A DNA stretch of 64,000 nucleotides from Thermosynechococcus vestitus BP-1 (GTDB lineage Bacteria; Cyanobacteriota; Cyanobacteriia; Thermosynechococcales; Thermosynechococcaceae): the NCBI RefSeq assembly GCF_000011345.1, contig NC_004113.1, positions 930,001 to 994,000 of the forward strand. Direction: 5' to 3'. Numbering within the stretch: the first letter of the stretch is position 1; each line of letters opens with the position of its first letter. The notes below the pieces were generated by a model. It had not been told where the DNA came from. It made no database searches and saw only the letters and a program-made list of their open reading frames with translations. Positions 57,139 to 58,863 of this stretch are shown piece after piece. Made by a program: the position numbers and the translations under genes.

Positions 57139-57225
57139 GATAGCCTAGGGGTAGGGACCGTTATTTTGATCCTTTCTGGGTGCCACTGCTGTGGAGGAAC
57201 AGGACCGATGATGAATAGTCAAATA

Positions 57226-57265
57226 TTGACATCCTCCCCCCGCTAAAGCAGGGGGATTCCCAAAA
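57226..57265 (-). ncRNA. Predicted 3' part of the TnpB guide RNA (omega RNA scaffold)
   Basis: In IS605 elements the RNA from the end of tnpB through the right end carries the TnpB-binding scaffold, and the flank supplies the guide. Here the region has the expected hairpin (57236-57255). The adjacent flank, read on the minus strand, begins TATTTGACTATTCATCATCG and would be the guide. Prediction from family knowledge; the 5' limit, probably inside tnpB, is not visible. Confidence 0.5.
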
Positions 57266-58438
57266 TCACTTTTGAGACTTTCTGCTTCTTCGCAGTTGCC
57301 CTTTAGACGTATGCCTATCAGGTCTTACACCCGCTCCACAGACTGTAACCGTGTGTCCCACGGCCAAAATATTCCCAGCGGCATTTACATCCCGATCATG
57401 GTGCGCCCCACACTTAGGACAGTCCCATTCTCGGACGCTCAATGGCAGCCGCTCAACAATGTGACCACACTGTCCACAGCGTTTAGAACTGGGAAACCAT
57501 TGGTCAATCTTCACCAGTGTCCGACCATACCACTGGGCCTTGTATTCCAATTGCCGTACCAGTTCACCCCATCCAGCATCACTGATGGATCGGGCAAGCT
57601 GACGGTTCTTGACCATATTCTTCACAGCCAACCACTCGATTACGATCGTTTGGTTTTCACGTATCAATCGAGTCGTCAACTGGTGCAAATGGTCTTTTCT
57701 GGAATCAGAGATTTTCTGGTGAATCTTGGCAACTTTCAACCGCGCCTTATGCCAATTGCGAGAGCCTTTTTGTTTGCGACTCAAAGACCGCTGCGCCTTA
57801 CGGAGTCGTTTGTAGTAGCGGTTAAAGTGCTTGGGGTTGGCAATCTTTTCCCCTGTGCTCAGGGTAATGAGGCTGCTAATCCCTACGTCCAAACCAACCG
57901 ACGGGTCGACGGGCTGCAGTGTCAACTCTCTGGGGTCATCAAACCTCAGACTGATGTACCACTGTCCAGCAGGGTTAAGCCTGATGGTCACCGTGGATGG
58001 TTCAACACCATCTGGAAGCCGTCTCGACCAGCGAATATTCAGCGGTTCGTTGCACTTTGCCAAGAATACTTTTCCGTCTTTCCACCTAAAAGCAGACTTG
58101 GTGAATTCTGCGCTACCGCCATTGCGTTTCTTTTTGAAGTTGGGATATTTTGCCCGACCTGCAAAGAAGTTACTGAAAGCAGATTGCAGATGTCTCAATG
58201 CCTGCTGCAAGGGGACAGAACTAACCTGATTCAAAAACTGAAGGTCATCTTGCTTCTTCCACTTAGTAAGCAAGGCAGAGGTTTGAACGTAGTCAAGCCT
58301 CTCTTTTCGTTCATACCAGGCTTCTGTTCTCGCTGCCAGTGCTCGGTTATAAACCAACCGAACACAGCCCAATGTTTTCCGAAGCAGGGATTCCTGCTCG
58401 GTCGTTGGGTAGAAGCGGTAACTGAAAGCCTTTTGCAT
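57266..58438 (-). CDS. tnpB: TnpB RNA-guided endonuclease
   Basis: 390-residue RuvC-type nuclease. N-terminal WED/REC part (MQKAFSYRFYPTTEQ, YNRALAARTEAWY), then the RuvC site: Asp184 (GLDVGISS), Glu268 (VIEWLAVKNM) and Asp350 (HDRDVNAAGNI). A zinc finger is formed by Cys321/324 (CGQC) and Cys340/343 (CPKC). All catalytic residues are present, so the protein may be active. Length is normal. The C-terminus ends in Arg/Lys-rich sequence. It has no HIP1 site. Confidence 0.95.
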   Translation of the reverse strand: MQKAFSYRFYPTTEQESLLRKTLGCVRLVYNRALAARTEAWYERKERLDYVQTSALLTKWKKQDDLQFLNQVSSVPLQQALRHLQSAFSNFFAGRAKYPNFKKKRNGGSAEFTKSAFRWKDGKVFLAKCNEPLNIRWSRRLPDGVEPSTVTIRLNPAGQWYISLRFDDPRELTLQPVDPSVGLDVGISSLITLSTGEKIANPKHFNRYYKRLRKAQRSLSRKQKGSRNWHKARLKVAKIHQKISDSRKDHLHQLTTRLIRENQTIVIEWLAVKNMVKNRQLARSISDAGWGELVRQLEYKAQWYGRTLVKIDQWFPSSKRCGQCGHIVERLPLSVREWDCPKCGAHHDRDVNAAGNILAVGHTVTVCGAGVRPDRHTSKGQLRRSRKSQK

Positions 58439-58548
58439 GCTTTAAATTATAGCGATTATTCTGTGAGTAGCACAACTATACTTGGCAGTCACAGACTGCC
58501 GCTCCTATCCCTCCCCTCCCTAAAGGAGGGGGTCTCTCGGAGGTAAAG

Positions 58549-58863
58549 ATGAATAGTCAAGACGCCAGCAGTGCTTCCGATGGGGGTCTCAATCCAGCAG
58601 ATTTACTGGTTTTGCCCGATCGCCAGCGCTCCCTTTTGACACTGATGATGCGCCAGCCGCTGCCCCGCACTGTGCCAGAATTGGCTGAGCAGTTGCAGTG
58701 GTCTGCCCAGGAGGTCAGCGCCATCCTCGCGGAGGTTCTTCAACTGGGCTATGTAACAGCTAACAATGACACCTACCAAGTCAAATTCGGACGGCGTACC
58801 CCGCGCCTCCAAGCCAAGGGTCCGTCGCCCCGTGTCGCGGCGGTTTGGGACAAGTTGGGCTAG
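58549..58863 (+). CDS. Small winged-helix protein, partner of the MinD-like ATPase
   Basis: 104 residues. Ser-rich N-terminus, then a winged-helix fold (RQRSLLTLMMRQPLPRTVPE, LAEQLQWSAQEVSAILAEVL, QLGYVTANNDTYQVKFG) and a basic tail (RRTPRLQAKGPSPR). The start is ATG 58549 with GGAGG (58539-58543) five bases upstream; this site is made by the end of the TnpB element plus one target base. Before insertion the gene most likely began at 57208, adding seven to eight codons. It may regulate or partner with the MinD/ParA-like ATPase; inferred from order only. Confidence 0.82.
   Translation: MNSQDASSASDGGLNPADLLVLPDRQRSLLTLMMRQPLPRTVPELAEQLQWSAQEVSAILAEVLQLGYVTANNDTYQVKFGRRTPRLQAKGPSPRVAAVWDKLG

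Follow-up and report, generated by a model that had tools for sequence, protein, structure and literature searches.

The window analysed here, a stretch of 64,000 nucleotides, covers bases 930001-994000 of a single-contig genome of 2,593,857 bases, and in it an insertion sequence abuts the start codon of a gene. How can a gene be entered at its very start and still be read? On the + strand, positions 58539-58551 read GGAGG-TAAAG-ATG: a Shine-Dalgarno-like GGAGG (58539-58543) stands five bases ahead of the ATG at 58549, with the spacer TAAAG (58544-58548) between them, as the sequence-only reading of this DNA had it. The ATG opens a frame of 104 codons (58549-58863, + strand) with a weak MarR/winged-helix match (MarR_2 of Pfam, 27.7 bits against a cut-off of 27), and DNA orthologous to this gene is present in 10 of the 10 other genomes of the genus that we searched. 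The former gene start lies on the other side of the element and is reduced, again as that reading had noted, to a 12-codon frame (57208-57246, + strand; ATG ATG AAT AGT CAA ATA TTG ACA TCC TCC CCC CGC TAA) whose TAA lies in the right end of the element.

We next consider where the gene can begin. In each of the three frames that run from the element into the gene, the stretch after the last stop is free of ATG, GTG and TTG up to the junction; the gene therefore starts at or after the junction, as had been proposed, unless a rarer start codon is used. For these three codons the same check rules out fusion translation begun inside the element. Initiation at 58549 and the use of GGAGG by ribosomes both belong to the explanation that we favour below, and we consider them probable to the extent that this explanation as a whole is. 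A search for the anti-Shine-Dalgarno end of the 16S rRNA gave no match to an exact 14-base pattern and none that was convincing to a 20-base pattern with three mismatches; the host 16S rRNA presumably carries this tail. A promoter scan of the left end toward the gene found nothing convincing (two promoter-like sites, both on the opposite strand, versus 1.2 in shuffles); the left end may still hold a promoter.

The element itself is 1323 bp long (57226-58548, - strand), with its limits set by the ends common to 21 copies, and is a tnpB-only insertion sequence of the IS200/IS605 type. Its tnpB (57266-58438, - strand) encodes 390 amino acids with Pfam matches to OrfB_IS605, Cas12f1-like_TNB and HTH_OrfB_IS605, the OrfB_IS605 and zinc-ribbon (TNB) domains scoring over the Pfam cut-off. 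It also has the subterminal hairpins with a guide, the fixed target tetranucleotide and the absence of inverted terminal repeats that mark this family, which has known tnpB-only members. No Y1 transposase TnpA is encoded in the 1323-bp unit. TnpB had earlier been taken as the inserting enzyme, an assignment that finds no support: the element lacks TnpA, all 13 Y1 TnpA matches in the genome adjoin copies of a second insertion sequence family, and we rejected TnpB as an integrase on the general biology of the IS200/IS605 family. The second family shares the right-end TCAA with the tnpB-only element, which is presumably mobilised by TnpA in trans.

Very probably the element is ISEL1, judging from its IS200 type and its three intron-bearing copies. 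ISEL1 of Thermosynechococcus elongatus BP-1 is described as an IS200 family member with three F4 introns in its copies (PMC2882425), and three copies of the window element likewise carry group II introns (L021, L022 and L023). The insert lies near the tnpB start in all three, with Rfam group II matches in L021 and L023, the two copies scanned. Neither start codons nor a ribosome-binding motif appear in the text on ISEL1 in PMC2882425.

To which side of the junction does the motif belong? Searching the genome with the element gave 20 long and five shorter matches, making up 22 copies, 21 of them with both ends (L019 lacks a left end, and L020 and L023 are one and the same copy). Eighteen of the two-ended copies are 1321-1323 bp long; the other three (1127, 1127 and 2161 bp) carry an intron-like insert. 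All 21 open with TTGACATCC and finish in CGGAGGTAAAG, the whole of which is the left end of the element. The four bases that follow are ATGA in 20 copies and ATAA in one (L004). Because CGGAGGTAAAG is present in every two-ended copy, GGAGG and its spacer derive from the element, the spacer being its final five bases, and only ATGA (58549-58552, + strand; TCAT on the tnpB strand), which contains the start codon, is target. The sequence-only reading had assigned the last G of GGAGG to the target, which is wrong: GGAGGTAAAG occurs in 21 of 21 two-ended copies, and the sites that could be judged in relatives place the boundary before ATGA. Its more general point, that the left end places a Shine-Dalgarno-like sequence at a suitable distance ahead of a start codon, holds in all 21 copies and in relatives from other genera.

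The choice of target can be understood by analogy to IS608 of Helicobacter pylori. In our element, folding as RNA and as a DNA strand predicts a left-end hairpin (58512-58532, - strand) with an 8-bp stem and, in the + strand RNA, a five-base loop; GAGA (58533-58536, - strand) lies ahead of the hairpin, at its foot, while the right end has TCAA (57226-57229; TTGA on the + strand) as its cleavage site and GAAT before its hairpin. IS608 has the same right-end TCAA and guide GAAT; there too the guide adjoins the left hairpin, guide pairing sets the target and a C follows the target, with guide bases 1 and 2 pairing with target bases -3 and -4 (PMC5934647). It differs in its target TTAC and guide AAAG, the complement of that target containing no start codon (PMC5934647), and in that our element is without tnpA. 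By this rule and by its position, GAGA would suit the target TCAT, and we infer that guide base 4 pairs with target base -1. Guides in related elements are GAAA or GAGA with TCAT, AAAA or AAGA with TTAT (except GAAA in L127) and GAAG with TCAC, so that guide and target mostly change together, in agreement with the IS608 guide-target pairs. The second family of this genome (L066-L076; 13 tnpB copies, each adjoining a Y1 tnpA) obeys the guide rule with its target TGAC and guide CAAG.

We then asked what the sites look like without the element. We joined the two flanks of each of the 21 copies, looked for them in five relatives of the genus and then compared them base by base with one relative, with flanks exchanged between copies (see below) taken into account and with L005, L023 and the site made of the left side of L018 and the right side of L012 outside judgement. 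Of the 18 sites that could be judged, ten are continuous in a relative and eight have more or fewer bases than the relative. We rejected target-site duplication as the normal result of insertion, since ten sites are continuous and only L001, the window copy, and L015 have more bases than the relatives (15 and 4, respectively). The window copy is preceded by ATGATGAATAGTCAA, with ATA directly before the element, and followed by ATGAATAGTCAA; the unit ATNATGAATAGTCAA occurs twice around it and once in each of the relatives G003 and G008. This looks like a 15-bp imperfect tandem duplication, which is no usual product of the IS200/IS605 family. It spans 57208-57225 (+ strand; copy 1 at 57208-57222, then ATA as the first three bases of copy 2) and 58549-58560, and is missing in relatives.

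The other six divergent sites (L003, L008, L013, L014, L017 and L021) are shorter than in the relatives, by 4 to about 130 bases. In the relatives, their left breakpoints are followed by ATAA, ATGA, ATAA, ATTA, ATTG and ATGA, respectively. As these tetranucleotides are target-like, the lost stretch begins at one such site and extends to the ATGA that now borders the left end, and the six sites are perhaps left-end adjacent deletions between two target sites.

What lies behind the junctions? We counted open reading frames of at least 75 codons that start 0-12 nt past a junction, with the 399 ATGA sites of the window as a baseline. Such frames follow 14 of 21 copies versus 84 of 399 window sites (binomial p about 8e-6), and at the junction ATG itself they start in 11 of 21 versus 66 of 399 (p about 2e-4); one of the 14, behind L007, lacks any Pfam match and may not be genuine. 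By comparison with relatives, nine copies sit at a gene start or 4 nt before it (L001, L003, L006, L008, L009, L014, L015, L016 and L022). Three more (L002, L010 and L021) lie inside genes, in a frame that restarts the remaining part, and L023 is uncertain. According to Pfam, L003 precedes the gene for IspD and L015 that for HisB (IGPD), while the genes at L006, L009 and L016 encode, respectively, a short-chain dehydrogenase, a response regulator carrying a SpoIIE domain and a GtrA-like protein; the same search gave no match behind L014 and only matches below the cut-off behind L008 and L022.

A photoautotroph can probably not do without IspD (MEP pathway) or HisB (histidine pathway). The single PF00475 match in the genome is this hisB; for ispD there is a single full-length PF01128 match, the second being weak (35 bits, 125 of 221 positions, in a 500-codon frame). 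With one full-length match each and a junction 4 nt upstream, the new leader must work for both. The genes hit, two of them probably indispensable, thus probably remain readable.

A possible but doubtful alternative is that the element has no special tie to starts: insertions within genes would be lost, and start ATGAs would form a big share of the low-harm sites. A simple gene model of the window classes 22 ATGA sites as starts and 41 as intergenic, which makes about a third of the harmless sites starts. However, starts occupy 9 of the 21 sites, and the three clear in-gene insertions all fall in a restarting frame, as 51 of 342 such window sites do, with the caveat that L011 and the L012/L018 site may also fall in open reading frames near their ends. 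Moreover, filtering of this kind still requires that genes deprived of their leaders be expressed.

At two sites the target also serves the upstream gene. In L006 and L016, ATGA is at the same time the stop of the preceding gene (for a FAD-binding and a UbiA-type protein, respectively), and the element sits exactly in the overlap. The right-end TTGA rebuilds the upstream stop in both: CTT TGA replaces CTA TGA in L006, leaving the residue unchanged, and TTT TGA replaces TTA TGA in L016, changing Leu to Phe. The frames of the genes on both sides are preserved. A few kb separate these two copies, which occupy different ATGA overlaps of a single gene cluster (UbiA-type, GtrA-like, FAD-binding, short-chain dehydrogenase).

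The best explanation, which we consider probable, is that a tnpB-only insertion sequence landing beside TCAT swaps the leader of a gene for a portable ribosome-binding site while the frame is kept. The element, of IS200/IS605 type and presumably moved by TnpA in trans, would enter beside a TCAT of the strand that carries tnpB; the complementary ATGA often serves as a start codon or as the overlap of a stop and a start. Its left end has CCTCC two bases ahead of the guide and hence, on the opposite strand, GGAGG 5 nt before the ATG. A gene struck at its start would then trade its leader for the ribosome-binding site of the element with its frame intact, and where the target is an ATGA overlap the right-end TTGA would also remake the upstream stop. 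This reading draws on the end structure, the target, the empty sites of relatives, the excess of open reading frames behind junctions, the absence of a start inside the element and the two probably indispensable genes behind junctions, all of them features of the DNA sequence.

We also considered that GGAGG is only the outer helix of the left-end hairpin, kept for transposition and unused in translation, the genes being read by Shine-Dalgarno-independent initiation as at motif-less siblings. Folding predicts a partner for GGAG (58539-58542) in CTCC (58502-58505, + strand). Such pairing would mask the motif in the mRNA: over a 101-base stretch at 37-57 C, GGAG is unpaired with a probability of no more than 0.11, and the fifth base with one of 0.5-0.7. 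Of 19 left ends folded as DNA, 12 show the full set of four CTCC:GGAG pairs and two show three of them. CTCC is always separated from the guide by two bases, and from the target by 6 to 8. Motif-less elements are, within the power of the test, equally often found before open reading frames (below). On the other hand, five of the 19 ends have no helix, L180 (GGAA) and L060 (TTCC) weaken the pairing, and covariation gives the helix no support because the pairs hardly vary; furthermore, GGAG keeps a distance of 6-8 nt from the start in different genera, a spacing suitable for ribosomes. We judge a motif wholly unused in translation to be unlikely.

Since CTCC keeps a fixed distance to the guide and its pairing would cover the motif, we nevertheless read the motif as end structure. 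It is more likely a useful by-product of that structure than a proven adaptation: CTCC/GGAG would be retained mainly for left-end DNA structure rather than selected as a ribosome-binding site, and we think that, as part of the end, it happens to act, perhaps weakly, in the latter role.

How widespread is the motif? Elements from G007, a genome of the same genus (TnpB 88% identical), retain GGAGG-N5-ATGA. G001 has three partial elements: L040 also retains it, L060 has GGAAG and L082 has GGAGG before ATAA; the motif is thus coupled to a non-start target in L082 as in L004. Of 386 genomes in the phylum, 14 contain the pattern GGGAGGGATAGGAG, located where the left hairpin has its inner foot; the backward control of this pattern gave two hits, in two other genomes. 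Among 22 loci fetched from outside this genome, 14 (from six genomes) have a left end with CTCC, L201 has a hairpin without it and seven have no left end. The CTCC-bearing ends run from a TCAT or TCAC target (ACAC in L205) through 6-8 bases, CTCC, two bases and the guide to the hairpin, a TCAC target making the junction codon GTG, and other genera again have elements with GGAG or GGAGG ahead of ATG or GTG. Three relatives (L203, L180 and L212, from G108 and G198) combine target TCAC with guide GAAG, and L180 opens a 229-codon frame from its GTG.

The sequence-only reading had suggested comparing the left ends of related elements. GGAGG is in 21 of 21 copies of the element itself, but among named cyanobacterial relatives (the best 80 of the matches listed, with the left end parsed in 53 and unparsable in 27 by a parser that presupposes a guide-like tetranucleotide) GGAG stands at ribosome-binding distance in only 2 of 53 ends, which confines the motif to a subgroup.

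That reading had also held that the motif is what makes the insertion tolerable, which the counts do not show. By the criterion used above, motif-bearing ends are followed by an open reading frame in 8 of 20 cases outside this genome and in 22 of 41 including it, versus 11 of 30 for the same target without the motif (L060, with GGAAG, being counted here), which is no significant excess (Fisher p 0.23), and GGAG is predicted to be mostly paired. Control ends with target TTAT gave 0 of 21 (p 0.0014 for TCAT versus TTAT), a difference that is partly definitional because ATAA yields no ATG. The second family, with target TGAC, gave 0 of 11, with flanks of only 172-406 bases. L112 and L211 (short flanks), L124 (unparsed) and L082 (motif, target TTAT) were omitted from the comparison.

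A bolder proposal, which we regard as speculative and improbable at present, is that a class of cyanobacterial IS200/IS605 elements has its left end, guide and right end tuned for translation-seamless insertion at ATGA or GTGA, bringing a Shine-Dalgarno sequence to the start and rebuilding the upstream stop, and that the left hairpin may make the captured gene switchable.

Insertion sequences with outward promoters supply expression signals to a neighbouring gene. The window element resembles them in this, with the difference that its signal would be translational and positioned by the target itself. It also resembles IStrons in having a built-in limit to the damage done to the gene entered; IStrons restore the mRNA via splicing (PMC4227781), whereas our element would provide a new start and sometimes a stop. 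A literature search by titles and abstract openings did not find the effect described, and the idea may be in print elsewhere. It would explain in concrete terms how a small genome can accommodate the spread of a multicopy insertion sequence without having its genes killed: the target tolerates loss of the leader, and the element brings a substitute. It would also connect start codons and stop/start overlaps with the target of an element that carries TnpB, a link that is testable across many genomes, and the approximately nine natural swaps of a ribosome-binding region for one identical sequence offer a ready test of its weight in cyanobacteria.

Finally, the copies have left other traces in the genome. 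Compared with the relatives, flanks are swapped between L007 and L008 and between L012 and L018, so recombination between copies has rearranged the genome. L021 and L022, at two different places, have the same intron and tnpB deletion, and the insertion sequence therefore seems to have transposed while carrying its intron.
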